DNA from: Ptychodera flava
Taxonomy: Eukaryota; Hemichordata; Enteropneusta; Ptychoderidae
Length of the DNA: 64,000 bases
Assembly: GCF_041260155.1 (NCBI RefSeq)
Contig: NC_091935.1
Coordinates: forward strand, 7,493,501-7,557,500
Direction of reading: 5' to 3'
Under the pieces are notes generated by a model. That model was not told where the DNA came from. It searched no databases and was given only the letters and a program-made list of their open reading frames with translations. A program made the translations under genes and the position numbers. Positions 1 to 49,595 of the stretch are shown here, one piece after another. Every line of letters starts with the position of its first letter. The first letter of the stretch is position 1.

Positions 1-2807
1 ATATATATACACACACAGAATTATTCAATTTATATTCCACCTTTTGTTTTACCTTTGTTGCGCGGAGGGGGGGGGGTGTTACCGTGTTTTCGAAAGCTGG
101 AATAGGGGGGTTAGCCACTTTTTGACGTCTGCAAAAAATAATCCACCACCCCCCAGGCCGAAGAAACTGACCAGTCCCTAAGGCCAAATGTCACCTATAC
201 CATCAGGGATCATTTGTCGAATTAAGAGAGATATTGTATCTATTTACCAGCCTTTGATATGTCCAAAAAAGAGTTTGAATGTAGATACAAGCCTTTCTCT
301 AGTGTAACCTTAATTTACAAGTTTGTAAGAGAGTGGTGGCTATGTCTCTCCGAAAAGTCACCATATGAACTGCATGCTCTTGCATATCGAATAAGCTCGG
401 AACTCTATACGCTGGTGGGAGTAGAATATTACTAATGAGGTATAGGAAATTGATGATACTGAAGTTGAAATCAACCCTCTTGTTATATGGCCTAATAGAA
501 AGGTGACCATCAGAGTCAAATTCATGGAATATATCCAGATATGAAGCAGAAGAGGCCGTTTCTGTAGTTTCTTTAATCTCCAATTCTGGAGGATAAATCA
601 TAGCAAGATGTGCGATATGACTAGGATCATTTGTCCCAATTGGCGATGTCTCTGCAATACTTACTGATTCCTCAGGTATGCGTATGTTCAAAGAAAACGT
701 TGTGGCTATGATAAGACAAAACTATAAACCTCGTGTAATAATTGTTTTTCCGGGTTTCTAAGGACGAAAAAATGCGCAAAAACTTTAACACAGTGACCTA
801 GTCTCGCTTGCTAGGCTCTCTAAGAGTTTCTCTTGATCACCGAGGCACTAGCAGACAGCATAAGCCCTAGAGTGGGATAGACGATCATGATAAGCACGTG
901 ACAGGTCAAATATAATTGCTATTTATGTTTATTGGTCTGGAGATTCACGACTACCTCTGGAAGGTTGCGTATGCATCTTCGAGGCAGAGGAATACTGCTC
1001 TGCAAATAACAATGCGTCCAATAAAAATACAATGAATAATAAAAATACACGTAAGAGGTTCATCAAACATGACTGTTAACTAAACAAAGATGTATCATTA
1101 GTTTGTAAAGCAGCTGAAACATAAACGTGCAGTTGTCATATAGGTTAGGAAGGTTGTTAGAATTGGATAAATCAATTAAGCCTTGAATTGTAAGATGTTA
1201 ATGAGCTTTGAGACGACTCAACTGTAAGAACAGGTGAAAAACCAGTAGAATAAATGGTTTACATTTTGAGTGTCTTACTGTACAACAACAAGGAAATGTG
1301 ATCGTAGATTTTCAGTTGATTATCAGTCAGGTAATTATAATATTAGAAATCCGGGACGGGTCGTGCTGTGCCGTTCTCAATTCCTATGAAACAAGTTTGT
1401 TCTAGAAGCTTATAATGATGCATAGCGATTGACAGGTAACAGACGTCATAATACAAGTACAAATGCAAGTAGTAGGCATTTATGAGTGAAGTAAAATCTT
1501 AAATGAAAATCTCATAGGTGTGCATAAAGTATGAGATTTTCTGACACTTAATAGGCCACCTAACTTCAGTATGTGTGTTGTTGAATCATCGACGTTACAA
1601 TGAAAACTTTCTATCTCAAGTAAATGCTCAAGATGCTACATCAAAATACAATATTATTGTTTACAGAAACTCACATACTAAAATGTGAAATCAAAACTTA
1701 GGATACAAACAAAGACTCTTGAACTCATAGAGATATATTTGATAATTTGAATTTTCCACAGTACTTGCCTTTCCATGAGAACATACATACATGTAATTGT
1801 ACATTGTGAGGATGAAACACAGTATGTCAGTGGTAGAATTCAAAGGTTGAAACCTCGGGTGTATTCGCTTTTGCAAGATAATAGTGAAGATAGCAAGACT
1901 GTTACAGAAATATTGAAGAATATTCTCAGAAAATATAGATATACTATGGTGAAATCTTCCATAAAAATCGGACGTTCCATACTATGAAAAAAGTATTTGA
2001 AAAACATTGGACTAGCTGTTTTGACATTTCAAAAGTATCACTAGGCTGCTTGATAACAAAATATGTGCGCCTCTTGGCTATCATGACATTGTACAAAGTT
2101 GAAATTCAAAGCTGCTATACACAGTCGATATGACACATCATTATCTCGAGTCGTATGGTTATGCTATTCGTCAGTATGGGGATAAAATTGAACGCGTCGA
2201 AAAATTTGACAGACGTTTTGAAAAGGACTCCTGGTTAAAAGGGAGTTTTCCTACAAATATCTCACATAAATTGTCAATACTTTGCTCTAATTTTTAAAAA
2301 TAAGATTTGATGACAAAAGGTGTGTTATCAAAATTTCTCCATTCTTCTTAAAATATGTTGCTAAATCAGCTGGTTAAAAAGGTATAATTTGGAGAAGATT
2401 TACAAAGGTGAGTTTGTTTATCTATTTTCTGTACAGAACTGCTTATTTCTTTGTGCCCTAAGTGGTAAGAGAAACATAGTGCAATCATTGACACTGTAAA
2501 GTGGCCTATATCTAGTGTTAAGAAACTTGACCAACCTAATTTTGCACTTGCAGTTGTAGCTTCAACACTTGTCCCAATAAACAGATTCATTTACCAGGAT
2601 GGGTGGAGGATGACCAAAGTCTCTCTTACAACTGTCAATTTATCGTTTATGCCTCATAAATGTTGGCCGATTTTTTCAATCGCCACTACTTAATTGTACT
2701 TCGTAAAAAATTACATGTGTTGCTTTCCGGGACCTGTCATAGTCTTATCAATAAGGTCCGTTCATCTGCTGTTTAACTTTATCCAAATATCGTCAAAATC
2801 GCCAATT
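1..2807. other. Intergenic sequence 3' of gene A
   Basis: This stretch lies downstream of the minus-strand Roc-COR-Death gene. I see no recognisable protein domain, RNA gene or mobile element in it. The first 180 bases hold short G and C homopolymer runs and a short AT run. Several open frames of 60-130 codons occur on both strands; none shows a known motif, and only the one at 299-691 is listed separately. I found no convincing AATAAA on the minus strand close to the gene A stop, so its transcript end is not placed. Confidence 0.5.
299..691 (-). CDS. Unrecognised open frame, possible terminal exon
   Basis: A 130-codon open frame on the minus strand. Its translation has an acidic, serine- and threonine-rich first half and a second half with a hydrophobic stretch around residues 75-92 (FNFSIINFLYLISNILL). 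No family is recognised and no clear initiation context or acceptor defines its start. It lies about 2.1 kb downstream of gene A on the same strand, so it could be a 3' exon of another gene or chance coding. No equivalent frame was seen downstream of gene B, which argues against a part conserved with the gene family. Confidence 0.15.
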   Translation of the reverse strand: MNIRIPEESVSIAETSPIGTNDPSHIAHLAMIYPPELEIKETTETASSASYLDIFHEFDSDGHLSIRPYNKRVDFNFSIINFLYLISNILLPPAYRVPSLFDMQEHAVHMVTFRRDIATTLLQTCKLRLH

Positions 2808-5800
2808 TTATGACATTCCTTCTTGCGATACTTGGTTGATGTGTTCCCTAATGATACAAACGATGTCATACCGCTCAAGAGATGGCCTTTGTAGTAGTTC
2901 TAGAAGATTCTTGATCGTTGCATGATGATATCTTGACCATTCATTAAGGATTTCACCGGTTGGATTACTCTTCTGATTATATATCTGGACTTGCCCAGCC
3001 GAGTATCCAAGTTCACCTTTATAGGAAAAAAGATGACCACAATCACATTAAAGCGAGTTTTTTGAAAAAAAGACTATTGAAACGGGCTAAAATATAAGAA
3101 AGTTGAGCAAGAACTCATCATCAAATCTTCTGACATAAAGTCAATCGCTCGACCGGCGCGACTCCTTTGCAAACACATGTGTCACAGTGACGTTCCAATC
3201 GATGTAGCCATCACCATCATGAAACAATGCAACAGGTACTATCAGCTCCCCTTGCCCATTGCTCTCTAAACCATCACCAACCCCACCACTGTCTCTGACA
3301 ATAGCCCTCGGACAACAACATAAAACCATGAAATACTCACCAGCTAGAAATCTCCAATCACCTCTCATGTGTTCAACATTGAGATGATCACAGATGTCTT
3401 GGTACAGAGTTGGTGGCATATCAGATATGCGAGTCTCAAGCTTTATAGATACTTGACCTGGCAACCTTGGATCACTCTCTTCACGCTGGCACAAAACAAC
3501 AATAATCTTAAATTTGGCAACTTGGGCTTCTGTATGGAAAGGCCCTCTTTATGACCCTCATAAATTAAAACCACTTTGTTTATCTAAACATGGTATATTA
3601 TGTGATTGTGGTTTCCTTGACAAGAGGCGAGCAGTTTCGAGCCGCCAATTTCAAGTTGCTTTTATGAATCAGTAATTTTTATCCTAATATGGTTTATGCT
3701 TTAGCACGAACAAAATTGTAAAGGTGAAGTGTTTGCGGTTGACTGTACACCGATTTTGAAATATAAATGTTGAATTCGCTGAGCTACTTAAAATCAAAGG
3801 TAGATAGTAAAACGGGAAAACAATTGAGTAAAGGATTTCTCCAGCAGTTTCATTCTCTAATCCTACAATTTTACAACAATGGCAGATGGACAAAAACCTA
3901 GGTAACACTCATATATATGTAAACTCACCGACGTGAACACAGGGTACGGAGTTAGTATCTTGCGTCTACCTTCACATAAGAGTTTGAGCCTTGGATTATC
4001 TAGAAGTTTTCCACCGTGACTTGTTAGCTCTATGATATGGAGGTGTTTTGGGTTCTCATATTCTCCATGGATCTTGTACGGGCACGGCATTCCCAGCGTG
4101 AATTCCATAAACTTGAAATCTCGTCTTCGTATGATATTCAGTTGGTCTAAAAGCCACTGGAGCAAACGTTTAGAATCAACATCAGGGGCCTTTTGGACCG
4201 TGACTTTTATCAGATTCTGTTCCACAGGAATGTGATGGACAAGTTGGAGTATGTACGTGATGTGACGGTCAAAGGAAAATCTTGCGATGTCACTGTAGAC
4301 ATGTCTCTTCAGTGACGATTTCAAAACCGTTGGGGAACTCATGCAACGAGCCAACAAACGCCAAAAAACTACGTCAGGTAGGAAAGATCCAAAGTCAAAA
4401 TAATATACATCATCATCATTGTGAAAAGTCTGCCATCTTGGCATTGAGTCATATTGTCCACCAGTTTCGTAGGCAGGTAGAATACTCGGGACCATGTACA
4501 AGTCTTCATCGTCGCTGGACTCTCTTGGTATCAGACACACAAGATCATAGGCAAGTAGTAAGGCTATAGTTAGCTCTTTTGATAAACCAACTGAATTGGC
4601 AATGTGGTTTATGAGATTGGGGTCTGCAAGTCCTCGCTTGTCCATCATATCCCAAGATTTCGCCAAGTGACGGGATCTTTGATTTCTTGGAGGAATAGTT
4701 ATCAAGACTTTCATCAAACTGACAAGAACGTCGGGATCAAAAATAATGTATTTACTTAGGTGACAATCAAAAGGTTGATATATAATTTCGCCTGCTTTGT
4801 GAAAAAACGAGAGCATATTCCGAAGCTCAATTTCTTCAACTAAAAACTGATGTTTTACGAGGACTTTAACGTCATCATACAACGATATTGCTTGTTTGCC
4901 ACCGTTTTGAAATTTACGTTCATTGATTAGTTTGTAAAAGTTCATGAATGGTACAGGAAACTCTTCACGCACGTACATCATATCCTCTATTTCTTTCAAT
5001 ATACACCTCTGGAGATTATGAGAATCTTCGTCTAATGGAACTGAATTCTCAATTGCAAAAACAAGCATGCCGTCAGGGTTTTTCACAAAACGATCACAAA
5101 GCCTGTATATAGATAGCTTCTCCGTTAGATAGCAGGCCACTTCAGAACGTTGCCTAGAATCAATGCTATTTCGATGAGTACCAACTAAAAATATGGCAGT
5201 GTCCTGACTCTCCGTGTGGGTACAAATAGAATTTAGCCAAAACACAATTCTTTTGAGCTGTTTTTCTCTGTCGTTTATGGCATCTACAAGACTGAATACC
5301 AATACATAAACCGAATGTGCAGAAATGAAAATGTGATGCGTTGAATAATACAACTCTTGACCGGCAAAATCCCATAAACTGAGACGAGTTGCAAGGTGCT
5401 TGTCTCCTCGTATTTGCTGTCTTATTGCTTCACGCACGTGTACGATAGGAATTGGTTGTCGCTTGACTTTACAATAAATGTACAGATCTACGAAAGGCTG
5501 GGTTGAAACAGAAATTACATACACGATCAGAGACAATGTTGATAGGCTGCGCGATGGTAAGGTAAAGCCAAGTAAATAACCAATAGTTATTCCGATCAGT
5601 AAACCCCCAAATCTCTTTGGTAGGTATCCGAGACAAAGTGTAACGTTTGCTGTTCTTCCCCAGCCTATACCTGAAAAAGTGCCAACCCAGATAAAGATAC
5701 CGAACACAAAATAGATAGCTACATGTTGAATTGTAGGGATGCAAGCTAGAAGAGAAATACACAACAACAAAGGAGAAAGGACTTTTGTTGATGCAAAAGT

Positions 5801-6802
5801 CGCTTGTAATTTATACCTGTACGTGTAAATTAGGCAACCAAATGCTAATCCAAGAAAAATAAAGGGGAAACCTATTTGGTAAGACAAGACGTTGGTACTG
5901 TCAATATACCATAAACGCGGTTTATCAATTTGTAGGCTTATGTTTCTTGTGGGCACGAGCATACACAAACCCCAGGCAACACCGTTCCGAAAACCAATAC
6001 CATAGGATGCACCAGCAGCGTAGCCAATCAAATAAAATGTCCAGTGGTACATCATCATAGAGAGAACGTGGGGAAGTGATGATCTTTGGAAGTCATATGG
6101 CAAGACACCATTGACAACATCACGTATGAGAGCATATTTACTTGATGAATATGTTAAAGTTGCAACATATATCAATATGGCAAGACCAGTACCATAACGG
6201 TATGTGATTATGAAGTCATTACTCCATATTAGACAGCAAAAATAACAAGCTAATTGGAGAAGGCCGTAACCATATTCCACTGTAATTTTCTCAAGGAAAC
6301 AGACCAGCAATAGTCCAGGAAAGAAAAACTTTGTGACAACTTTAATAATTTTCCTCAATGGCCATTTTATGAAGTCCATGGATTCTTCGCCTCTGATATC
6401 ACATTTTGTTGATCGTTCCTGAAACGGTGTTTTCGACGCTTGAATTGCACTTTCAGCTGTACACCAAGACGCACACCTCTCAAACTCATCTGAAGTCGAC
6501 GTCTTACATTCTTTCCATCTGGAGTCTACATCTTTGGTCTCATACATCTTTGTTTCAATTCCTTCGGTACTTGGCTCGTCACTTTGAAACTTTTCGCCGG
6601 TCAAGAGACGCAACAGACTAGTTTTTCCAACCCTTGCATCACCGACAAACATAACTTTACTTCGATTGAATGGTAGTTTACTGCTTTGCTTGCAGTTCTC
6701 GTAGAGATTTTTCACTTCCTCGTCATGTGCTAGTGCTCCAAAGTTGTAGCATCTCCCATAGTTTGGAGATCCATACAGCATCGCTTGTAATTTATTCGAC
6801 AT
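2808..6802 (-). CDS. Gene A: Roc-COR-Death protein with membrane domain inside the Roc GTPase
   Basis: Three coding exons on the minus strand: 6802-3929, 3485-3341 and 3016-2808, with GT-AG introns in phases 0 and 1. They predict 1,075 residues. The start at MSNKLQ is chosen because gene B begins MTNELQ and a pyrimidine-tract acceptor (…CTCTCGTAG) lies just upstream, at 6826. Residues 54-62 (GDARVGKTS) are the P-loop and 78-83 (STEGIE) are switch I. Residues about 150-446 are 8-10 hydrophobic segments. WDFAGQE at 477-483 is G3. VGTHRNS at 540-546 is the G4 position, with Asn in place of the usual Asp. The COR region spans about 610-930, and a Death domain split over the last two exons spans about 977-1066 (DICDHLN, GDWRFLAG, EWSRY, REHI). 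Roc-COR proteins are Ras-like GTPases that dimerise through COR; Death domains recruit signalling partners. I infer a membrane-anchored signalling GTPase, possibly in innate immunity or cell death. The frame is intact. No leucine-rich repeats or kinase are visible. Confidence 0.87.
5465..6355 (-). other. Polytopic membrane domain inserted in the gene A Roc domain
   Basis: This part encodes residues about 150-446 of gene A. Hydrophobic segments by eye are at about 152-172, 177-196, 200-218, 247-267, 270-285, 308-328, 341-357, 359-382, 398-414 and 422-445. Short loops hold conserved motifs such as YRYGTG, GFRNGVAWGLC, TYRYKL and LCLGYL. In ordinary Roc domains switch I and the DxxG motif are a few tens of residues apart; here they are about 395 apart. 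Both GTPase halves must face the cytosol to fold together, so the number of true spans should be even. I do not recognise the domain as any named transporter or channel family. Confidence 0.8.
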
Positions 6803-9479: not shown

Positions 9480-11870
9480 CGACAGAACAGTTGTTAATAT
9501 TTCTCAGTATATGTCGGATATCTGTCATGCATCTTCATATATGTAGCAAGTGTTATTAGATATGATACAGTAATTTTCACTCATTTTACTAATAACACCA
9601 GATGTGAACTGAATGTGCTCACGTGTTTTACAAAAGATTCACTGATAGCAGATTTCCTCAAATTTGGTGCATTTATTTCGGAGTTATATGACTAATTACA
9701 AAACTTCATAAAATATGCAAATGATCTATTTATTAACTTGACACTGCCGAATTCTTCTTAGTACAATTAGATATTTATCAGATCAATATCTTTAGAAGGT
9801 TTCACAAAGTTGTGTGACGTAATTTCAGAGTTAAATAGCTAATTACAAAGTTTATTAAATATGCAAATGAACCCTTAATTAACTTCACACTACTTAATGC
9901 TTTACACCACAGTTAGATATCTGTCGGATCAGTATCTGCACTGATTTCATGAAATTTGGTGCAGTTATTTCTGTGTTGTATGACTAATTACAAAAGTTCA
10001 TAAAATATGCAAATGAGCTATTTATTAACTTGACACTGCCTAATACTTCTAATTACAATTAGATCAATATTTGTTGCACGTATCATCAAATTTGGTGCAG
10101 GAATTTCAGAGTTATGTCCCTAATTACAAAAGTTTATTAAATATGCAAATGAGCAGATTATTGACATGACACTCACAGTATCATCATAATGTTTTGAGAT
10201 TGTCATCTGTGAAAAATTTCATGCAATTTTGTGCAGTATTTCTTAATATACGTCGACACTGTCATTACTGTCTCTATAGGGAAACCATGATATGAAAAAA
10301 TATGATATGTCATAACTTTGTAATATGCAAGCCACACTAACCAAAATCTAATCAGTTCTTGCAAGTAGCATATGGTACCCGTCTACCAAATCTGACTTGA
10401 ATCTGTTCAGGCGTTTTTGAGTTATCGTGTAAACAGACAGACAGACAGACACACTCACACACACGGAAAAACAGACATCGCTATGACATTAGCTCACGTG
10501 TGTGGGAGCTAAAAAGGGCATTCAATATGCAAAAAGCCGTTAATTGACACGGCTAATCGATTCTGAGAAGAGTAAGATATCTGTCAGATCAATATCTGAA
10601 GCAACTTCCATTGAGTTTGGTAAATTAATTTAGGAGTCAAATTATTAATTACAAAAATTCATGACATATGCAAATGAGACATTTCTCAATGTGACACTGT
10701 TCAATGCTTCACAGTACAATCAGACATCTACCATATCAATATCTGGAGCAACTTTCATCAAATTTGGTGTTGTAATTCCGTAGGTATATTACTATCATAA
10801 TTTATGTAATGGAACCATGAATTAAGTTGCCAAATGCTAACTGCTTCTCAGAACAGTCAGGTTTTATCGAATTTGGTGCTGTTATTTCCGAGGTATATTA
10901 ATAATGACAAAATTTATTATATATGCAAAGAGCCATTAATGAACTTGATACTGCTCAATGCTTCACAGAATAATCAGATATCTTTCAGATCAATATCTGT
11001 ATAAGTTTTTTTCAACTTTCGCACAGGACTTTCGGAGTTAAACCACAAATTACAAAACTTCATTTAATATGCAAGTGAGCTGTTTATTGACTCGACACCG
11101 CTCAATGCTTCTCAGTACAATTAGATATTTATCAGGTCAATATCTATAGCAGGTTTCACCAAATTTGTTGCCATTATTCCAGAGTTACATCACTAATTAC
11201 AAAGTTCATTAAATACGCAAATGAAGTCTTAATTAACTTCAGACTACTCAATGCTTCTCAAACACAGTCAGATATCTGTAGGATCAGTATCTGCAGCGGA
11301 TTTCCCAAATTTGGTGCAGTTATTTCGGAGTTATATGACTAATTACAAAACTTCATAAAATATGCAAATGAGCTATTTAGTAGCTTGACACTGATCAATG
11401 CTTCTCAGTACAATTAGATATTTATCACATCAATATTTGTAGCAGGTGTCATAAAATTTGGTGTAGGAATTTCGGAGTAATATCACTAATTAAAAAAATC
11501 ATTAAATATGCAAATGACCAGATTATTGACATGACACTTATAGTATAATCATAATGTTCAAAGATAGACATCTGTGAAATGTTTCATGAAATCTTGTGCA
11601 GTTTTTCTTAATGCGTCGACACTATCGTTACTGTCTCCATAGGAAACCATTATTTCACAACTTCATTAATATGTATGCCATACTAACCAAAGTCTAATTA
11701 GTTCTTTCCACTAGCATATGGTACCTGTCTACCAAATCTGACTTGAATCAATTCAGATGATTTTGAGTTATCGTGTAAACAGACAGACAGACAGACACAC
11801 TAACACACACACGGACAGACATCGCTACGACATTAGCTCACGTGTGTGAACACTTGAGCTAAGAATGACA
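9480..11870. repeat. Satellite-like array, about 146-bp monomers with ATGCAAAT octamer
   Basis: Diverged monomers each contain a version of ATATGCAAATGAGC, then CACTGCTCAATGCTTCTCAG, then GATATCTGTCAGATCAATAT, then AAATTTGGTGCAGTTATTTC. Perfect octamers start at 9715, 9861, 10007, 10143, 10668, 11362 and 11508, with several variants between them. Typical spacing is 146 bases. Two sub-arrays each end in a GTTATCGTGTAAACAGACAG tail followed by ACAC runs and TTAGCTCACGTGTG, near 10420-10515 and 11765-11860. Confidence 0.85.
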
Positions 11871-20610: not shown

Positions 20611-21059
20611 ATGCGAAGTTATAAGTGATACACGTTACGGTGCACAGGGTGTCAGAAGTTCAGGTACAACTATTACCATAACAAGTCTGTCTGTGTGTCT
20701 GTCTGTCCCCCCTCTCTCTGATAGCCTTTGATGTTGATAGATAAAGACATTAAACCACAGGAAGTAATCCATCCCCCGATTTGCTTTCATATCCTTCTTT
20801 CTGAAACAAGCTCATAGGTTTATGTAACCATTTCATGATTGCAAAAACAGACATAACATAACAAATGTAACATGGACGGTATATTATTATTATGAGATAT
20901 AACAGCGTTTACTTTCCAACCGTATTGATACCCGCACTGTGTAAAAAAGGTATTTAAATGGCCGTTATGAGAGGGCCTGTGGATCTTAATTTTAGCCGCT
21001 TTGATTTACATAGACAGTTCTTATACACTCATAGCCATACAAGTATTGGAAATTTCCTT
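20611..21059. other. Spacer between block 1 and gene B
   Basis: About 450 bases with a short GTCT run near 20685-20705. No coding sequence or recognisable repeat is seen. It is the region immediately 3' of gene B, and no clear minus-strand polyadenylation signal was found. Confidence 0.4.
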
Positions 21060-24000
21060 CTAGGGTGCCTGACTGATGTGTTCCCTGATGGTATCAACGA
21101 TGTCGTATCGCTCAAGAGATGGCCTTTGTAATATTTCAAGAAGATTGTTGACCGTCGCGTGATTATATCTTGACCATTCCTGAAGGATTTCACCAGTTGG
21201 ATTCCTCTTCTGACTGTATATTTGGACTTGCCCGGCCGTATGCCCAAGTTCACCTTGATAGACAAAAACATTGATAAAAATCATTTCAATGCGTTTTCTA
21301 TTCAGGGGAAACTGCAGAAGACGAGTCAATACTGCAAAGGTAAACATCAGCCTCCTACAGAATTTCAGAAGCAAAGTCTACTGCGCGACCGACGAGGCTG
21401 GTGTGCCACAACATTTTTAACGGGCGATTTAGCTCCATCGCCATCATAAAATAAGGTAACTGGTTCAGTCAACTGCACACCCACTGTCCCTAAAACAATC
21501 CCCGCCACAATCACCAACATCATGTGTGTCACTTACAAGAGCCTACCATCGTGGACAACTCACCGGCCAGAAATCTCCAATCACCTGCCATGAGGTCAAC
21601 ATTTAGATGATCACAGATGTCCTTGTAAAGGATTGCTGGCATTTTAGATATGTGAGTCTCAAGCCTTATAGATACTTGTCCAGGTGACTTTAAATCGATC
21701 TTGGTACCCTGTTATCACAATAAGAATAATATTAAAAAAGTGTCCGAAATATTGAAAATTTTTTGTTTATGTACAGAAGATATAATTATTATTCTATGGA
21801 GTTTTCTTGCCTTAAGAACAGAAATAGTAACGTTTGCTATTTGTTTACGCGACAGCAGTGTTCTCTCTTGATTTGCGACTTTAAGACCTAGTCATTTTAA
21901 GTACACATCACTGAAAAGAAACATGTACTTAAAACAAATGTTTTGACCATCAAACAGCCGGCAGGGACACACTATTTAAGTAAAGAGAAAATTGTAATGA
22001 AGGAATATTTGTGGTTGATTTTTCAAGTTTTTTAAAACACCAAATCAAAGCAGGCAAAGTAGAAGGTTCTATTTTGAGATACAATTCGATGAGCTGCTCT
22101 AAATGGATACAACTTCATAAATAATCTTTACATCGTCGTTCGAGAAACATATTTCAGTAGTATATTTATTCTCCACTGTTTAAAATATAGTCTAAAAATA
22201 AAAGGATTCTAATAAGTATATGGACTCTTTTAGTAAAACCAAAGCTTAACAGAACTCACCAAAGTGGAGACTGGATACGGTTTTAATACATGGCTTCTAC
22301 CTTCACATAACAAATTCACCTTTGGATTATCATGAAGTTTGCCACCACGACTAGTAAGCTCTATGATATGCAGGCGTTCGGCGTTTTCAAATTCATCATG
22401 GGACTGGTAGGGACATGGCATTCCCAATGTGAATTCCATAAACTTGAAATCTCGTCTTCGTATGATATTCAGCTGTTTCAGAAGCCACTTGAGCAGACAT
22501 TTAGAGTCAATACCTGGGGCCTTTTGGACCATGACTTTTATCAGATTCTGTTCCATGGGAATGTGACGAACAAGTTGTAGTATGTACGTAATTTGGCCGT
22601 CGAAGGAAAACCTTGCGATGTCACTGTAGACATGTCTCTTCAGGGATGATTTCAAAACTGTTGGAGAACTCATACAACGAGCCAACAAACGCCAAAATAC
22701 AACATCAGGTAGGAAAGATCCAAAATCGAAATAGTACACGTCATCGTCATTTTGAAAAGTCTGCCATCTTGGCATAGAGTCATATCGGCCATCAATTTCG
22801 TACGCAGGTAGAATACTTGGGACGATGTACAACTGTTCATCATCTTTGGACTCTCTAGGTATCAGGCAAACGAGATCATAGGCGAGCAGTAGGGAAAGGG
22901 TCAGCTGTGTAGATATACCGACTGACTTTGTAACGTGGTTTATTAGTTTGATGTCTGCAAGTCCTCGTTTGTCCATCATGTCCCAAGATTTTGCCAAGTG
23001 ACGGGATCTTTGATTTCTTGGAGGAATAGTTATCAAGATTTTCATCAAACTGACAAGAACGTTGGGATCAAAGATTACGTACTTACTCAGATGATCATCG
23101 TCAGGTTGATATATAATTTCACCGGCCTTGTGGTAAAAAGAGAGCATTTCCTGAAACACGGGCTCTTCAACTGAAAACTGATGTTTTACACGGATTTTAA
23201 CATCATCATAAAGACAAATTGTTTGTTTGCCACCGTTTTGAAATTTACGTTCATTGATTAGTTTGTAAAAGTTCATGAATGGTACAGGAAACTCTTCACA
23301 CACGTACATCATATCTTCTATTTCTTTTAAAATGCACATCTGAAGGAAGGAAGAGTCGTTATCTAATGTGATCGAATTCTCAACTTGAAAAACGAGCATG
23401 CCCTCAGGAGTGTTGACAAAGCGATCACAGAGACTATTTACATTCAGTTTTTCTGTGAGATAGCCAACAACTTCGGAACGTTGAATAGAGCTAATGCTAT
23501 TTCGATGTGTCCCAACTAAAAATATGGCAGTGTCCTGACTTTCCGTGTGGATACAAATAGAATTTAGCCAAAACACAATTCTTTCGAGCTGTTTCTTTCT
23601 GTCGTTTATGGCGTCTACAAGACTGAATACCAATACATAAACTGAATGTGAAAACATGAAAATATGATGCGTTGAATAATACAACTCTTGACCGGCAAAA
23701 TCCCACAAACTGAGACGCGTTGCAAGGTGTTTGTCTCCTCGTATTTGCTGTCTTATTGCTTCCCGCACGTGTACGATAGGAATGGGTTGTCGCTTCACTT
23801 TACAATAAATGTACAGATCTGTAATTGGCTGCATTAAAACAGAATCACATACACAAACAAAGCTGGGATAGGCAGGTCACGAGATGGAAAGCCTAAGCCA
23901 AGAAAATGACCGATCATTATCCCGATCACTAATCCTCCTAGTCTTTTTTGCAGATATCCGAGACAAAGCGTAAGACTTTTTGCTCTACCAATACCCATGC

Positions 24001-25129
24001 CAGAAAAAATACCGATCCATATGAAGGCACCGAACACGACATACATAGCTAGATGTTGAATCCTAGGGATGCATGCCACAAGAGAAATGAAGATCAATAA
24101 AAGTCGTAGGTCTTTTGTTAATGCAAAGGTCACTTCTAGTTTATACCTATATGTGTACAATAGGCATCCAAATGTTACCCCAAGGAAAATCAAGGGAAAC
24201 CCAAGTTTGCAAGATGAGACGTTAGCGCTGTCACTGTACAATACAGGCATTGTATCTAAGGTAACGTTTCTTGCGGGTACAAGCATACATAAACCCCATG
24301 CAACACCATTTCTAAAACCGACACCATAGGATACGCCAATAATGAGGCCGACCCCATAAAATGTCCAGTGATATATCATAGTGGAGAGAACGTGTGTAAG
24401 AGATGATGATCGGAAGTATGATTGCAAGACACGACAGAAAACATCATTCAAAAATGCACGTTCCCATGAAGAATACATAAAATAAGTTGCAACATATGTC
24501 GATATGGCAAGACCAGTACCATAACGGTATGTGATCATGAAGTCATTACTCCATATTAGACAGCAAAAATAGCAAGCTAGTTGGAGGAGGCCGTAACCAT
24601 ATTCCACCGTAATTTTCTCAAGGAAAGAGAACAATAGCAGTCCGAGAATGAAAAACTTTGTAACAACTCTGATAATTTTCCAAAATGGCCATTTTATGAA
24701 GTCCATTGAGTCTCCGCCTCTGATATCATATTTTGCTGATCGTTCCTTGAACGGTGTTTTCGACGCTTGAATTGCACTTTCAGCTGTACACCACGATACA
24801 CATCTTTCAAACTCATCTGAAGTCGATATCTTACATTCTTTCCATCTGGAGTCTACATCTTTGGTCTCATACATCTTTGTTTCAATTCCTTCAGTACTGG
24901 GCTCGTCACTTTGAAACTTTTCGCCGGTCAAGAGACGCAACAGACTAGTTTTCCCAACCCTTGCATCACCGACAAACATAACTTTACTTCGATTGAATGG
25001 TAGTTTTCCACTTTGTTTGCACTTCTCGTAGAGATTTTTCACTTCACCGTCATGTGCTAGTGCTCCGAAGTTGTAAGATCTTCCATAGTTTTGCAATCCA
25101 AAGATTGTCTTTTGTAATTCGTTCGTCAT
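21060..25129 (-). CDS. Gene B: paralog of gene A, Roc-membrane-Roc-COR-Death, with one frameshift
   Basis: Exons on the minus strand are 25129-22260, 21708-21564 and 21253-21060, with the same phases and the same 145-base middle exon as gene A. The reading starts MTNELQ behind an acceptor (TTCTCTTTTCTACAG) at 25161. All landmarks match gene A: GDARVGKTS, STEGIE, the membrane domain, WDFAGQE, VGTHRNS, COR, and the Death domain (DICDHLN, GDWRFLAG, EWSRY, REHI). Next to the end of the membrane domain, near 23843, one base is missing compared with gene A (ATT-CTGTT against ATTTCTGTT). As read, the protein stops after 431 residues and the second half reopens at MQPITDLYIY. The rest is open. The shift may be a young loss-of-function change, an allele, or an assembly error in a T run. 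Residues about 45-100 and the block around WDFAGQE are identical to gene A, while the membrane segments differ much more. Confidence 0.85.
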
Positions 25130-27551: not shown

Positions 27552-30480
27552 AAAACGGTATAACATCTTGTCTTCGTTTAAGTCCAATCATTACGGTGAT
27601 TTTTATTTTCTTCAAGAAACTCATTCTACAGTGGCTAATCAGGCACCAGTGGCAAGTTGTTTGGCGCGCACGTATTTTCTTCTCTAATGGTACGAGTAAT
27701 TCTGCTGGTGTTGCAGTGCTGTTTCCGCGAAACAAAAATGTTGATGTTGTTTCTGTCAAAAGTGTTATCTAGGGTCATTTACTGCATCTGCATGTTAAGA
27801 TGAATGATGTTTCCTATCTTTTGCTTAATGTTTATGCTTCTTCCAATGGAGATGATCGTTGTATTTTCTTTCAAAGTCTTCGTAAATTTCTCCTTGATTT
27901 TGATCTTGTTTATGAAAATATTGTCATAGAGGAGACTTTAATTGTACTCTTTTTCCTGACTGAGACAGGTCGTCTCATATTGAACCACATTTGAAGTCTT
28001 CGCAAGTCTTTTCTTTGCTTGTCCATCGTTGTAAGCTTTCTAACACCTGGCGTCATTTCATAAGCAGTCTCTACTGACTCTCCTACTGATTTATCTGATC
28101 ACTATCTTGTTTCTCTTGTTATAACTATGAATCCATGTGTCAGCAAAAATTGAGTTTGTTGTCTCAATACTAGTCTTCTTAATGTTGAAGATTACTGTAC
28201 TATAATTAAGGAATTCTGGGAAGGTTGGCGTAATGAGAAGGATAGATTTTCTTTTCTTCAGCTTGATGGGATATAGGAAAACAAAAGATTAAAGAATTAT
28301 GTCGGCAGTACAGCGTTAAACGAGTTCATCACTTTAAACATTACCACCACGAACTATCAGTGGTTCAGGATGGTCCTACTTAAATTTGTAAATCTCAAAT
28401 GTCCCATGGACCTGGTAATGTATTACTTTGAATGGAAATGATTATTGGGCAAGTTTAATGTCATATTTAAACGTTCAAAACAAAAGCTAATTGAAGAAAT
28501 TCATACTTTGGAATCTTTGATTCATACACAGCCTTCTCTGGAAACAAGATATAATCAGCAAAAGACCTGTTAGACAGTTTTCAGGAACTTGATACCAGAG
28601 GTGCAATTATTCGTTCTCGTTTTCAACAGCTTAATGATTCTGATACTAATTGAGTGTTTCTTATCTCTCGAAAAATACAAAGAAAGTCGTCAGTCCATTA
28701 GTCATCTCCAACGTGAAGATCAGACAACTGCAGAAAATCAGAGTGAAATTCGTCAACTTACTCGCCAGTTTTATCAAAATCTTTTTACTGCTGAGCCAGA
28801 TTCACCTGAAGCACAAAATATATTGCTTCATGATTTCCCTCAATTATCAGGTGACAAAATTACTTAACTTGATGACCCCATTAGTCTTGATGAGTACACC
28901 TTTGCACTCAAGAACATTGCAAATGGTAAAACGCCTGGTGTTGATGGCATACCTTGTGAATTTTATAAAAAAATTCTGGTCTTTTCTAGGAAGAGATTTC
29001 CACCAGGTTTTTTCAAAAGTCAATTTCCGATGGCCTTCTTTCAACGTCCTGTCGTAGAGCTGTTACTACACTCCTTCCGAAACAAGGTGATAACTCTCTT
29101 CGGAAGAACTGGAAACCTATCAGTTTGATTGGCTCTGATTTTAAAATTTTAACTAAAGCTTTATCGCTTAGCTTGAAACAAGTTTTGCAAGATATCATTC
29201 ATGTAGATCAAAGTTATACTGTTCCAGGCAGACAGATTTTTGATAATATTCAATTAAGCAGAGATTAATAATCAAATGAATTTTCCGATTTTCCATCAGC
29301 ATACAATTTAGCAAAAGATTCCTGTTTTTCTATCATCTGTTCTCCCAGACTTCTGTGTAAATGTACTGAATGCCTGGTATGCGGTGAAACAAAATGCTTC
29401 TCATGTAGGTAACCGTACACTTCTTAACTGGTCTTCTAAATTCAGGTATTTCTATGCCGCTAAGTCTGCACGTAATGACTATGGTGTCATACTTAGCGAC
29501 TCTAGGACTTTAGTCTACAAATTAACTTGCAAGGTGTTGTATGCTCATCTCATACAAAGGCATTTATTACATGCAAGTGATAAACTCTCGAAATGGTTTT
29601 CTAGTTTAAACATTTTTCCTGTAAAGTCAGAGAGTGACTGTAACAAAATTTGGTTGAGAGTGTACAATCTGACAAAAGAAACTAAGTTAAAAGAGTTTCA
29701 GTAGAAACTTTTACTACGATTAATACCATGTAACAAGTATTTATTCTTTTGGAAGCTAAAAGATTCAATGTTCTGTCCACTTTGTCAGCAGATTGACTCT
29801 TTGGAACATAAGATTTATTTATTGTCATATCGCTGTGAGATGTTGGAATAAGCTAAATACGTCATCTCCAGATATTTGGATTTATATATTGAAATAACGC
29901 CATCAGACATATTTTCAGAAGCTTGTGAGAAAGTCACACCTAAAGGAAAACGTTATGTCCTTCAACTTCTAATTATCCTTGGTAAATGGAGCATCCATAA
30001 GTATTGGGTGACCTATGAAAATACACCGATTGAAGTTGTAATTAAAAATGAGTTTACTTTAAGGTACAACATAGAGAAGCAGCTGGGTGCAAAGGCTGAC
30101 GTATTAGAAAGTTTTGAGACGATAACGAGTTAAATGTAAATTTAACCTCTTACAACTTGTCCATTTTCCTTTGTTTAACTGCCACTAGGATACTTGCGTA
30201 TCCATGTCACTGTAATATTTACATATCCATGTATTTGATATGAAGTTTCAACTAAAATATAAAAAAAAATAAAATGAATTTTCCTCTTGGTATTCTTTCT
30301 TTGGATCAGGAAAAGGCTTTTGATCGTGTCAGTCATCATTATTATCTTCAAACTCTGCATACGTTGGGGTTGGTGAAAATTTCATCAATTTTATAAAACT
30401 TAGTTTCTAGCAAGAGCAGGATCTTGTTATACGGATTAGGACAGAGAGAAGGTCATATTTTGGAAGTTCTTTTGGGAAGT
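27552..30480 (+). mobile_element. Tx1/L1-type LINE, 5'-truncated and decayed
   Basis: Pieces of one ORF2 are read in order on the plus strand. An endonuclease segment (FYFLQETHS at about 27600, then a GVAVLFPRNK stretch) is followed by an RT segment with NGKTPGVDGIPCEFYKK (about 28922-28975), LPKQGDN and NWKPISLIGSDFKILTKAL (about 29075-29160), and YTVPGRQIFDNI. After an inserted LINE copy the frame resumes with LDQEKAFDRVSH at about 30300, which holds the catalytic Asp of RT motif A. Many stops and frame changes are present. The start coincides with the end of homology to the 50.9-kb duplicate, so it inserted there after that duplication. The 3' end is not clearly defined. Confidence 0.8.
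29287..30271 (+). mobile_element. Second, 5'-truncated LINE copy nested in the first
   Basis: An insert of 985 bases is bounded by a perfect 13-base direct repeat, AAATGAATTTTCC, at 29274-29286 and 30272-30284. It ends in an A-rich tail. It encodes only the C-terminal part of a Tx1/L1-type ORF2 (for example WYAVKQNASHVGN and a CPLC-x-EH-x-C zinc-knuckle-like remnant near 29775-29835), with a stop splitting it and a last frame at 29876-30133. The older copy's reading breaks exactly at this point and resumes after it. Confidence 0.85.
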
Positions 30481-31879: not shown

Positions 31880-33745
31880 AAATAAAGATATTAAATCTCT
31901 TTGACGGCAGTCATTTCGATTTCAAGCAGGAAAAAGCAGGAAAAAGCAGGAAAAAACATAGTAAGATATCTGTCAGATCAATATATGTAGCATTAAGTGC
32001 AGTTTAATTCAGGTGAAAACATCTTCATCAACTTTCAATAAAATCACCGCAGTTTAGCAATTCATCGACAGGACAGTTGTTAATATTTGTCAGTATAGGT
32101 CAGATATCTGTCATCTTCATATATGTAGCAAGTGTTATAAGATCTGATACAGTAATTTCGACTCATATTACTAATTACAATAGACCATGAAATATGCAAA
32201 TAAGCCGTTAATTGACACGGCTGAACGCTTCTGAGAGGAGTAAGATATCTGTCAGATCAATATCTGTAGCAGCTTCTATTGAGTTTGGTAAATTAGTTTT
32301 GGAGTCAAATTATTAATTAAAAAAAATCATGACATATGCAAATGAGACATTTCTCAATATGACACTGCTCAATGCTTCACAGTACAATCATACATCTACC
32401 AGATTAATATCTGTAGCAACTTTTATCAATTTGGTGTTGTAACTTCATAAATATGTTACTACTATAATGAATGTAATGGAACCATGAATTAAGTTGCCAA
32501 TTACTGACTGCTTCTCAGAACAGTTAATATCTGTAGCAGGTTCATCAAAGTTGGTGCTCTTATTTCCGAGGTATATTGATAATCACAAAGTTTATAATAT
32601 GCCAAAGAGCCATTAATGAACATGACACTGCTAAATGCTTAACAGAATAATCGGATATCTGTCAGATAAATATCTGTATCAGGTTTCATAAACCTTCGCA
32701 CAGGACTTTCGGAGTTAAATCACAAATTAGGAAACGTCATTTAATATGCAAGTGAGCTGTTTATTGACACGACACCGCTCAATGCTTCTCAGTACAATTA
32801 GATATTTATCAGGTCAATATCTGTAGCAGGTTTCAACAAATTTGTTGCCGTAATTTCAGAGTTATATCACTTATTACAAAGTTCATTAAATACGCAAATG
32901 AAATCTTAATTAACTTCAGACTACTAAATGCTTCTCACACACAGTCAGATATCTGTCGGGTCAGTGTCTGCAGCAGATTTCATCAAATTTGGTGCAGTTA
33001 TTTCGGATTTATACGACTAATTACAAAACTTCATAAAATATGCGAATGAGCTATATAGTAACTTGACACTGCTCAATGCTTCATGGGACGATTAGATTTT
33101 TATCAGATCAATATCTGTAGCAGTTTTCGCCAAATTTGGTGTCATTATTTCAGAGTCATATCACTGAATACAAACGTCAATAAAATATGTAAATGAACCC
33201 TTTATTAACTGTACACTACTAAATGCTTTAAAACACAGTCAGATATATGTCAGATCAGTTTTGCAGCAGGTTTCACCAAATTTGGTAGAGTTATTTCAGA
33301 GTGATATCATTAATTACAAAACTTCATAAAATATGCAAATGAGCTATTTATTAGCCTGACACTGCTCAATGCTTCTCAGTACAATTAAATATCTATCACA
33401 TCAATATATGTAGCAGATATCATAAAATATGGTGAAAGAATTTCGAAGTTCATTAAATATACAAATGAGCAGATTATTAACATGACACTCATAGTATAAT
33501 CAAAATATTCTAAGATTGTCATCTGTGAAAAGTTTCATGAAATTTTGTGAAGTATTTCTTAATGTGTCGATACTGTCATTGCCGTCACCATAGGAAACCA
33601 TTATGTATTAAAAATAATATTTCATAACTTCATTAACGTGCAAGCCATACTGACCAAACTTGTGAACAGACATACAGACAGACAGACACACACACACTAA
33701 CACACACACGCGGACAGACATGGCTACGACCTTAGCTCACGTGTG
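31880..33745. repeat. Octamer satellite array of block 2
   Basis: The same diverged repeats of about 146 bases as at 9480-11870, with perfect ATGCAAAT octamers at about 32194, 32335 and 33333 and decayed versions near 32885, 33042 and 33188. It ends in the same GACAGACAGACA and ACAC tail and CTCACGTGTG. Confidence 0.8.
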
Positions 33746-38823: not shown

Positions 38824-39509
38824 CACAGAGAAACATACACAGAGTGGCAACACTTGCATGCCTTCTGTTCCATGGTCGTCTCGGTAGACTATTGGCTTTT
38901 CATATTAAAATGAGCTTCAAAGGTGTTAAACTTTTTGGAGGCTTTGTTTGTGGTTGATAATTACACGAGATTATGCGAAAAATACGACGAGATGGCATCG
39001 TACTGCCAGTCGCGTAGCAACCATAGTTACTTTGTGAGCTCTCAGGCCAGAAACACTGCTTCACGCCAATCAAAACATAACACGCCAGCAGTTTCATAAA
39101 CATGTCCTTCCTTGACGCACGTGTAAAAGACGGTATTACTGACCGTAAACCAGACAGTATCGATAAAAGACTTTCAAATTTGGTTCAAACACACTCATTA
39201 TATATTCATAAAAATATGAGAGGAATTTTTAAAACGGTAAAACTCATTTTCCTGAAGCTCAAAACACTCCCGTTTTCGCCAGCACGTCAATTCTGCTCAG
39301 CACCACACGACAACAACAACACAAACTTTGCTGAACATACTTTCGCTTAACAATTGGCGAAAATCCGAAAATTACCGAAGGATTCATGGTCGGCACTCTT
39401 CGGAAAAGAGAGGCGAGAGCAACCTGAGGCGAGGCGAACATGGATGGGTTACGTAACCGCTTCACGCCTTAAACAATACGCGTTGCCACTCTATCTATGT
39501 TTCTCTATG
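38824..39509. mobile_element. Non-autonomous TIR element copy 1, 686 bp, 7-bp target duplication
   Basis: The ends begin CACAGAGAAACATA and CATAGAGAAACATA (opposite strand) and match over 28 bases with three differences. ATCTGAT is repeated exactly at 38817-38823 and 39510-39516. Block 1 shows the empty site at about 17605 (CCATCCGATTAGTC), and block 3 shows CATCTGATTACTC. Inside is a frame related to the second copy (MFMKLLACYVLIGVKQCFWP on the minus strand), but no transposase is recognised. Confidence 0.85.
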
Positions 39510-42500: not shown

Positions 42501-43517
42501 ACCAAAGCAAAGCCTGTTCAGTAACGCTAACACAGTGCCTTTTACAGGTGCCTTTTTTCCCGTTCACGTGTGAACTGTTTGATGGCCAGCAATTCCTGAT
42601 ATTCGAATTGCGAACTTTCGCGAGATTTAACATTGTGCGCAGGCGCATTGAATGTGATTTTCCTATTTGGAGCAGACGGTAGGACAATTTTTTACCGCGA
42701 ATCACGATTTACGTGCAGCAGTTGCTAGGGATATGCCAGAGTTCCAGTGCGCAGTACGGGATTGCAAATCGCATACCCATGAGCTCCGAAATGTGGAAAA
42801 GTATCCATGGATGAGTGGGGTGACTTTCCACGCCTTCCCTCTTCGAATATCGCAGAGAAATCTTCGCCGGAAATGGATTGATCTCTGTTATCGCGAGCCA
42901 TCGTGGTTCCCCAACAAGTTCTCCAGAGTTTGTTCAAGTCACTTTGATCCTGACAATTTACCCTCTGCCCGTAGCCGGAATCACTGTATCGTTCCCTGCA
43001 AATTCCCTTACAACAACTTGGGGAATTTGTGAAATCCATCCCATCCGAGAAACCAGTGGCAGCTAAACCGCAGTTTAGACACCGCTCGTGCACAACGAAC
43101 GGAGAATAACTTACAAGTTGATCATGGCATCGAGACTGACACTCAACTTACATCTCTTGACGTCACGATTTCGACGGATTCTAGAAATCGACAGAGTTAT
43201 CCGTCCGTATGCATGAAAAGTAAGTTTATTCTTGTTAATGTAATGCTTGCTAAAGTCTTATGTTGTTTGTATGTGTTTGTGTGTCTTTTTATATCTTTCC
43301 AAATTCATTTTCATTGTTCACGGTCGTGCATCGATGGCCATTTTACCCGGCCAGATGATCTTCTGCGCGGCTTTCACGTCTTGTAGCCGGCCGCCTTGCA
43401 TGAACGAAATTTTGATTGTATAAGGATTGGCTTCTCATATTTCTTGCTATCGAATATGAGTCACGATGCATTTTTTAATGTAAGTAACACAATTTTATTG
43501 ACCGATGTGATGTAAAC

Positions 43518-44168
43518 CATAGAGAAACAGGGTATTGTTTAAGGCGTGAAGCGGTTACGTAACCCATCCATGTTCGCCTCGCCTTAGGTTGCTCTCGCCT
43601 CTCTTTTCCGAAGAGTGCCGACCATGAATCCTTCGGTAATTTTCGGATTTTCGCAAATTGTTAAGCGAAAGTATGTTCGGCAAAGTTTGTGTTGTTGTTG
43701 TCGTGTGGTGCTGAGCAGAATTGACGTGCTGGCGAAAACGGGAGTGTTTTGATTCCTCTCATATGTTTTATGAATATATAATGAGTGTGTTTGAACCAAA
43801 TTTGAAAGTCTTTTATCGATACTGTCTGGTGTTACTCAATGGTTTACGGTCAGTAATACCGTCTTTTACACGTGCGTCAAGGAAGGACATGTTTATGAAA
43901 CTGCTGGCGTGTTATGTTTTGATTGACGTGAAGCAGTGTTTCTGGCCTGAGAGCTCACAAAGTAACTATGGTTGCTACGCGACTGGCAGTACGATGCCAT
44001 CTCGTCGTATTTTTCGCATAATCTCGTGTAATTATCAACCACAAACAAAGCCTCCAAAAAGTTTAACACCTTTGGAGCTCATTTTAATATGAAAAGCCAA
44101 TAGTCTATCGAGACGACCACGGAACAAAAGGCATGCAAGCGTTGCGACTCTGTCTATGTTACTCTGTG
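43518..44168. mobile_element. Non-autonomous TIR element copy 2, 651 bp, reversed, in transposase intron 1
   Basis: The same element as at 38824-39509 in the opposite orientation. The ends are CATAGAGAAACA and, on the other strand, CACAGAGTAACATA; the left inverted repeat has a short internal deletion. The 7-base sequence TGTAAAC is repeated exactly at 43511-43517 and 44169-44175. The plus-strand frame 43721-44092 contains MFMKLLACYVLIDVKQCFWP, shared with copy 1 (67 codons there), but it matches no known family. Confidence 0.88.
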
Positions 44169-48613: not shown

Positions 48614-49014
48614 TTAAAAGTAAGATTGCCTTTGAATATTTGGAAAAATCCATGACATGAACAAGTTAGTAAGCTTGGAGTGCCACACATCCCATAATGC
48701 TTGATCATGGTAAATTCTCTCCACATGAATGTTTGGATGTTTGCCTAAAAACAGTACAAAATCACAGTATTCCACTTTAGCCAATGCCATCTGCATCTGA
48801 ATTTGTGTCATCCATGGACCAGAACCAAGGTGAACACACTTGTTCTCATCTATACTTATATTATTGCTTTTGAGATTAGCAAACTCTTCCAAACTACAAT
48901 CAGCACCTGTACTTGGGCACTTTATTTCAACAACCCCTCTCCCATGACATTTACATTCAACCATGGCATCAGGGCTTGCTCCTAGATGGGGTTTATCAGG
49001 AACAACAATCAACC
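48614..49014 (-). CDS. YqaJ-like nuclease, last exon, of the ISL2EU-like element
   Basis: An open exon of 401 bases on the minus strand follows an acceptor (GGGAAACAG) at 49015. It reads GLIVVPDKPHLGASPDAMV, then CHGRGVVEIKCP, then QIQMQMALAKVEYCDFVLF. These are the core motifs of YqaJ-type exonucleases (PD-(D/E)xK fold: Asp in SPDA, Glu and Lys in EIK, Gln in the following helix). It ends at SYF. The preceding exon seems to end at 49201 with a GTAAGT donor in matching phase (…LIDFE-G). That exon contains FGERVPRSMTH and runs into the minisatellite, so the N-terminal part is unclear. In ISL2EU elements such a nuclease accompanies the transposase; its exact role is not established to my knowledge. 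Confidence 0.8.
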
Positions 49015-49334
49015 CTGTTTCCCAAATCTAGCCAAGGGGTATGCTGCTCACCAGTATGGACGCATTCTATGGGTCCCACATGAGCGTCCGAATGTAAAAC
49101 GGCAGCCCGTCCCACAGCTGCCAATACATCCAGGGCTAGACGGTGGCTAGATCATTAACCCCCATAAGCTTACAATACAATGAACAACGTTGTCACTTAC
49201 CTTCAAAATCAATGAGCTTTTCGAGATCACGGACACTGAAAGAGTGATACTTTTTCCGGATGCAATCATGGGTCATGGAGCGAGGGACACGCTCACCAAA
49301 ACTTGCCAGCGCCCTCATGTGTTGGTGACAAAAA

Positions 49335-49595
49335 TCATTGACTGCGACGCCCATGTAGGAGAGAAGCAATTGACTGCGACGCAGACTTTGAATGCGGACA
49401 CATATGTCAGAGAGAAACAATTGAATGCGACGCAGACATTGAACGCGGACACATATCTCGGAGAGAAACAGTTGACTGCGACGCAGACTTTGAATGCGGA
49501 CACATATATTTCGGAGAGAAACAATTAAATGCGAACACATATGTCGGAGAGAAACAATTGAATGCGACGCTAACATTGAATGCTGACACATAAGC
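49335..49595. repeat. 51-bp minisatellite
   Basis: About four and a half copies of a unit of 51 bases contain TTGACTGCGACGCAGAC, TTGAATGCGGACACATAT and a GAGAGAAACAA tail, diverging toward the right. Because 51 is divisible by three and the unit has few stops, open frames of 17-residue repeats appear on both strands. I treat these as by-products. Confidence 0.9.

Follow-up and report, generated by a model that had tools for sequence, protein, structure and literature searches.

In G alpha, a whole soluble helical domain is nested in the Ras-like G domain, between G1 and G2, and Arf uses an N-terminal myristate and helix with, to our knowledge, nothing inserted in its beta2-beta3 hairpin. In Arf, this interswitch hairpin is where the nucleotide state is linked to engagement with the membrane, and the accessible text of the same source states that such a toggle is absent from Ras and G alpha (PMC12554972). 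Within the ROCO family, Trichoplax proteins carry CARD and Death domains (PMC4104024, PMC6337361), some algal Roc domains carry non-conserved inserted sequences (PMC11378527), and brown-algal proteins with C-terminal homology to membrane proteins are cited in PMC4104024; the accessible portions of these algal sources describe no membrane domain inside Roc (PMC11378527, PMC4104024). Putative Toll-like receptors of Aplysia have ROC and COR domains (PMC9334734), and TRADD-N proteins, often with Death-like domains, are expanded in marine invertebrates, including hemichordates (PMC8195603).

The window, the whole 64,000-nucleotide stretch of Ptychodera flava DNA that was analyzed, holds two genes of the same kind, A and B, which sit within a large duplication and were identified by tblastn with P0004, a P. 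flava protein 93% identical to the gene A product. The sequence and the structural models strongly suggest that gene A encodes an integral-membrane ROCO protein with a membrane domain inside Roc, followed by COR and then a Death domain. The features of gene A, in the order of the protein, were as follows:

3929..6802, minus strand: exon 1, encoding the N-terminus, both Roc halves, the membrane insert and COR
6617..6643, minus strand: P-loop (G1) GDARVGKTS, residues 54-62; G54, G59, K60 and T61 are present in 52/52 aligned proteins
6554..6571, minus strand: switch I STEGIE, residues 78-83; Thr79 is present in 50/52 aligned proteins
6527..6544, minus strand: strand beta2, residues 87-92, the first side of the split hairpin (AlphaFold2 secondary structure)
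6359..6526, minus strand: pre-membrane segment, residues 93-148, with a conserved Trp, W96
5462..6358, minus strand: membrane domain, residues 149-447, with 8-10 segments by hydropathy and AlphaFold2
5387..5461, minus strand: return linker, residues 448-472, basic and predicted to be cytosolic
5354..5386, minus strand: strand beta3 and G3 (WDFAGQE), residues 473-483, with the model strand at 473-479
5168..5179, minus strand: G4 motif THRN, residues 542-545, where the usual Roc form is THxD
3953..5092, minus strand: COR domain, residues 571-950, from the Roc-COR fold match
3341..3485, minus strand: exon 2, the start of the Death domain, with acceptor CCAG/CGT and donor CTG/GTGAGT, matching P0004
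2808..3016, minus strand: exon 3, the remaining Death domain and the stop codon, with acceptor AAAG/GTG, matching P0004

Exon 1 is an open frame from the ATG at 6802, with a donor (TCG/GTGAGT) after 3929, and the predicted protein, which starts MSNKLQAML, comprises approximately 1075 residues over three exons with fitting splice sites. The Death exons of P0004 were located in gene A by tblastn, and the Pfam Death match on P0004 covered residues 986-1062 (E = 3e-8). COR sits directly after Roc, and the Roc-COR fold matched those of LRRK2, LRRK1 and the C. tepidum Roco; by its defining domains, the gene A product is a ROCO protein. The Pfam matches of gene A and P0004 included no kinase, and neither kinase nor repeat domains were found in gene A. 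The Roc-COR order and a Death-family domain are shared with the DAPK1 group, the Trichoplax ROCO proteins, and P0052 of the starfish Patiria, and the Death domain is C-terminal in both gene A and P0052. DAPK1-type ROCO proteins, however, have a kinase before Roc, whereas gene A has no kinase and carries a membrane domain inside Roc; P0052 has approximately 100 residues of soluble insert, with no hydrophobic segment between G1 and G3. The Aplysia proteins offer a candidate likeness, in that Roc-COR occurs there in putative invertebrate immune receptors, but they differ in having TIR and LRR domains, and the accessible text describes no membrane insert in their Roc (PMC9334734).

The sequence-only reading had placed the span from the P-loop to G3 at 5354..6643, which proved exact, with G54 starting at 6643 and WDFAGQE (to residue 483) ending at 5354. 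Pfam Roc matched gene A in two stretches, the best covering residues 463-543. The main test proposed with that reading came out in its favor: both halves join in one Roc domain in the AlphaFold2 models, forming one GTPase fold. The models and the aligned sequences place the membrane domain in the beta2-beta3 turn of the G domain (the interswitch). Sequence and model thereby support GTPase motifs that bracket a membrane segment, as a statement of anatomy alone. The hairpin is the same as that used in Arf, but the membrane element of gene A is a covalent part of it; compared with G alpha, the nested domain is membrane-embedded and lies between G2 and G3.

A typical Roc is contiguous, with approximately 45-60 residues between G1 and G3, a spacing that describes many members and does not define the family; in gene A, it is 424. 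In prokaryotic loci, 184 stretches fitted one P-loop pattern; 40 were Roco relatives, and the 31 with a readable G1-G3 pair all had spacings of 43-57 residues. The expectation that these motifs lie tens of residues apart in Roc agrees with the readable prokaryotic Rocos, but long soluble inserts are common at the same place in related ROCO proteins, and a wide separation of G1 and G3 does not by itself set this layout apart.

Gene B bears on the reading that the hydrophobic stretch is an artefact, whether an intron left unspliced, a chimeric join or part of a dead gene. Its parts were as follows:

23834..25129, minus strand: gene B 5' frame, with the P-loop half and the membrane domain as far as a one-base deletion near 23844
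22233..23876, minus strand: gene B 3' frame, with the G3 half of Roc and COR
21541-21696 and 21048-21254 (within 21048..21696), minus strand: gene B 3' exons, Death domain (tblastn with P0004)

The lost base falls at codon 430, late in the membrane part, and splits the frame, such that Pfam Roc matches the P-loop half at 49-100 and the G3 half lies in the other frame. From its first Met, the 3' frame is the P. flava model P0009, identical for 525 residues; this public model begins after the deletion, and public gene models could be purely computational. The recurrence of the layout in gene B therefore stands as regards the layout, but not as an intact frame: the sequence indicates that either gene B is broken or its N-terminal half and the rest are not translated together. 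In gene A, by contrast, the frame is uninterrupted in one exon, as originally read, and open through all 299 membrane codons. The A-versus-B dN/dS in the membrane part was 0.34 (bootstrap 0.25-0.48), with differences commonest at third codon positions (61, 48, 95); homologous stretches occur in other phyla, and the insert was kept in 17 of the 19 named P. flava proteins among the matches listed (P0009 and P0027 lack the P-loop half). The codon-position bias, dN/dS, cross-phylum conservation and public gene models led us to reject an unspliced intron, a chimera or a random open frame and agree with the earlier view that the stretch is no assembly join, leaving the artefact reading largely refuted and extremely improbable. 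Outside the membrane part, A-versus-B dN/dS was 0.16-0.27, the values for the two Roc halves were 0.31 and 0.17, and these sequence comparisons support faster divergence of the membrane part than of the remaining protein.

The first protein search yielded 127 proteins at E<=0.001, of which the best 120 of 127 were examined, and 52 insert-bearing proteins were aligned, gene A included: at least 17 further proteins of P. flava, three of Glandiceps, four from two Branchiostoma species, two of the starfish Patiria, one of the brittle star Amphiura, one each of the snails Patella and Babylonia and the brachiopod Lingula, and 21 environmental proteins. The layout is thus present in other deuterostomes (Branchiostoma, Patiria, Amphiura), where the sequence-only reading had proposed to look for it, and beyond them, in molluscs and Lingula. 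Left out of this alignment (from P0003-P0058) were P0009 and P0027 (no P-loop), P0052 (soluble insert), and P0053, first judged to be without the layout and later scored as hydrophobic. The distance from the switch I Thr to the G3 Asp was 333-452 residues in 52/52 aligned proteins. Among 143 proteins (P0003-P0145) gathered, from the matches listed, by similarity to gene A and its relatives, whose proportions are no survey of ROCO proteins, 55 had 2-9 hydrophobic segments between G1 and G3, 84 had none, and four had no recognizable G1-G3 pair; the motif pattern behind this count assigned a wrong spacing to P0013, P0015 and P0053 at the least. In 50 relatives, Pfam identified a Death domain in 22, CARD in one, and COR-A in 34. 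A wider search with a diverse alignment added no members; one of its 23 matches was the first sequence of the alignment, and the others were without a membrane insert.

The original estimate of approximately 300 residues in 8-10 hydrophobic segments was borne out at residues 149-447, which contain eight hydropathy peaks (average over 37 aligned proteins) and, in the AlphaFold2 models, ten helices, seven long and three short (10-16 residues), the short ones possibly not crossing the membrane fully; the structure alignments comprised 50 and 49 rows. Sequons, in a test that left out three short loops, fitted ten crossings with both ends cytosolic. The charge pattern fitted the predicted topology in part, with K+R exceeding D+E in 4/6 predicted inner segments and not in the pre-membrane segment (7.4 vs 8.4) or the second inner loop (0.2 vs 0.7). 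Residues 446-470 had a mean of 4.8 K+R vs 2.3 D+E, and W96 was found in 97% of 37 animal-type proteins. Sequence and model together support a predicted topology that starts and finishes the membrane domain on the cytosolic side. The domain carries the conserved motifs YRxGTGxA, GxGxRxGxA and GxxxGR, and profile comparison of its parts detected no internal repeat.

Among 11 members scanned, the insert gave three weak Pfam matches, confined to single members (best E, 0.047); it had no match in NCBIfam and none at E<=10 in PDB sequences; Foldseek against PDB and viral folds gave none at E<=0.001 among the matches listed, with no clear PDB fold match. The Na+/H+ antiporter fold was also considered as a candidate for the insert as a whole. 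A further search at the length of the insert itself, which scored only the 7994 candidates sharing most words and can miss distant relatives, returned one match, a protein with the P-loop and part of the same membrane domain. The candidate origin of the insert as borrowed from a known transporter or a free-standing membrane protein found no support in Pfam, NCBIfam, PDB sequences or Foldseek. In line with the initial statement that no named family has this layout, none was found in Pfam, NCBIfam, PDB sequences and folds, or the open-licence literature searched, which likewise yielded no account of a membrane domain nested in Roc or in any other G domain.

Soluble inserts are common at the same turn, so the site may simply tolerate insertions. 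On this basis, the membrane domain would merely fix a ROCO-Death scaffold, using the interswitch turn as an insertion-tolerant position. The soluble relatives with inserts at this place (43 of the 84 membrane-free proteins have a G1-G3 spacing of 80-350) are compatible with such a passive anchor, as are nucleotide motifs that are degenerate in part of the family. Nevertheless, one helix would do as an anchor, and all 52 aligned proteins retain the Gly, Lys and Thr of the P-loop as well as the Asp and Gly of G3 (D478 and G481 in gene A). In addition, the 8-10 segments with Gly/Arg motifs, detectably common to hemichordates, amphioxus, starfish, molluscs and others, suggest that the domain has a function of its own, and we regard a passive anchor as improbable.

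The degenerate motifs also raise a pseudo-GTPase receptor, in which the membrane domain senses and Roc no longer switches, serving as a structural adaptor to COR-Death; this overlaps the sensor reading set out below. The last G4 residue is Asp in 26 of the 52 aligned proteins and is replaced in the other 26, by Gly in 15 (all 15 aligned proteins of one environmental clade), Asn in five (Asn545 in gene A included), and other residues in six, and the Gln after DxxG is missing in 35/52. With the Asn in gene A and the missing Gln, hydrolysis or the specificity for the nucleotide may have changed or disappeared. In LRRK2, however, Arg is aligned at the position of that Gln, and LRRK2 switches despite it. 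The invariant P-loop residues and G3 Asp and Gly, the nearly invariant switch I Thr, and the low dN/dS of both Roc halves likewise argue against a structural role alone, and we consider the pseudo-GTPase receptor unlikely. An output device, in which the membrane domain would be a channel, scramblase or pore gated by Roc according to its nucleotide state, with cell death or ion flux following and the signal running from GTP to the membrane, appears rather unlikely as well.

A tree of Roc and COR, built without the insert, separates 46 membrane-type proteins from 38 others by a single branch (SH-aLRT, 97), with one change of state; it came from a quick search and has a midpoint root and several long branches, including Lingula. 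The 46 rows exclude near-copies (P0044, P0047, P0048) and short or partial sequences (P0022, P0038, P0050) of the 52 aligned proteins, and the 38 others were hand-picked from 84. This is consistent with a layout gained once. A further 19 proteins fall on the same side of the midpoint root as the membrane type (fork support 86, drawn open) and have G1-G3 spacings of 136-334, i.e., long soluble inserts, the spacing of P0072 coming from a doubtful motif, and a Trp shortly after beta2 was seen by eye in 7/9 soluble-insert relatives, as in the membrane type. From these two observations, the hairpin probably lengthened first, and the membrane domain was received later by an ancestor with a longer soluble interswitch.

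Homology of the insert to that of hemichordates was detected at profile probabilities of 84-99 (reversed controls, <=2.2) for two amphioxus types, starfish, a second Glandiceps type, the mollusc type and the environmental group enaB (96). It was undetected by profile comparison, also with a merged profile, for the environmental clades micro1 and micro2, the environmental group enaA, the brittle star and Lingula, and the enaA insert matched enaB at a probability of 66. Three of three tested pairs (amphioxus A with enaB, amphioxus B with A, and the mollusc type with amphioxus A) were mutually unmatched though each member matches hemichordates, making non-detection weak evidence. The micro clades branch outside the remaining membrane-type proteins, and their sequences may represent an independent membrane insertion. 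A prokaryotic origin of the layout was rejected, with no hydrophobic segment between G1 and G3 in the 31 readable loci, and two scans of viral contigs found no relative that would point to a viral origin.

Our preferred reading, given a probability of roughly 0.45 with the anatomy included (the anatomy alone is far more certain) and drawn by analogy with Arf, is that the membrane domain is a sensor coupled to the Roc switch and a Death/CARD output. The membrane domain would sense a ligand, lipid or damage by changing shape; this change would pull the beta2-beta3 hairpin joining switch I to switch II and shift the nucleotide state of Roc; Roc-COR would then dimerize or rearrange, and the gathered Death (or CARD) domains would give a cell-death or immune signal. 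The Death and CARD domains among the relatives point to signaling of this kind. Coupling of membrane state and nucleotide state, proposed at the outset, is what we infer from the layout, tempered by the gene B frameshift and the G4 Asn of gene A; the AlphaFold2 models, which show one state each, are silent on it. As Ras and G alpha lack such a toggle according to the accessible text of PMC12554972, a Ras-like Roc need not toggle, and a toggle in Roc would be new. In its many P. flava paralogs and faster-changing membrane part, the family resembles immune receptors. The most variable loops differ between paralog clusters. In the first, one predicted inner loop was variable too (53%), and the second varied no less in the pre-membrane segment than in the outer loops. 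In the third, of three proteins, the two large outer loops were among the most conserved parts (93-95%), which contradicts the receptor-like reading. A receptor class with the sensor and G protein in one fold and a Death/CARD output, multiplied in acorn worms in an immune-receptor-like manner, can be proposed only tentatively.

Our analysis identified a ROCO protein whose layout was found described nowhere in the literature searched, with its anatomy supported by sequence and model and its function predicted. It adds a membrane domain without a detected relative in Pfam, NCBIfam, PDB sequences or folds, and a candidate membrane-protein family, spread over several invertebrate phyla and bearing Death or CARD domains, of which no description was found in the open-licence literature. 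If the layout works as it looks, the membrane and the nucleotide switch would be parts of one lever, and we know of no other GTPase in which they are; the family would then allow one to test directly how the nucleotide state is set by force or binding at the beta2-beta3 hairpin, which is relevant to Arf and LRRK2. If the sensor reading is true, one chain would do the work of a GPCR plus G alpha, with a conformational change in the membrane being a mechanical change in the GTPase switch.

Both minus-strand ROCO genes, in which a membrane domain is nested inside the Roc GTPase, lie within a large duplication, whose copies are offset mainly by about 18.3 and 21.9 kb. An incomplete third copy was found near 61.5 kb of the window, and no Roc gene was detected in this partial copy. 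Tandem repeats with a unit of 146-147 bases occur at two sites about 22 kb apart.
2800-63000: large duplication
9651-11517 and 32526-33434: tandem repeats, 146-147-base unit
49358-49534: tandem repeat, 51-base unit, 3.4 copies

The frame of gene B is split by a one-base deletion near the end of its membrane part. The start of P0009, the public gene model from P. flava, lies downstream of this deletion. In gene A, alignment revealed that the base-specificity Asp of the G4 motif (usually THxD in Roc) is replaced by Asn, and Gly occupies this position in all 15 aligned proteins of one environmental clade.
23834-23876, minus: one-base deletion in gene B
5168-5179, minus: G4 motif of gene A

Long inverted repeats (96-99%) enclose about 4 kb containing a THAP-domain frame, an arrangement that looks like a transposon. 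Transposase fragments and a weak reverse transcriptase match were also detected, and a YqaJ-like viral recombinase frame sits in this animal genome sequence.
38824-39479 and 43532-44168: long inverted repeats
42658-43032: THAP-domain frame (Pfam THAP, E=2e-11)
47265-47815, plus: DDE_Tnp_4 transposase fragments with HTH_Tnp_4 (Pfam)
28990-29268, plus: fragment weakly matching reverse transcriptase (RVT_1, E=5e-6, under the curated cut-off)
48614-49027, minus: YqaJ-like viral recombinase domain frame (E=2e-7)

Soluble inserts of about 90-250 residues were observed between G1 and G3, downstream of switch I, in nine proteins from the similarity searches (P0052 from Patiria, P0061, P0066-P0069, P0085, P0093, and P0101). 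The carriers are ROCO-like proteins of cnidarian, mollusc, starfish, Cymbomonas and other origin. The interswitch, the β2-β3 turn that also receives the membrane insert, looks like a hot spot for insertions.
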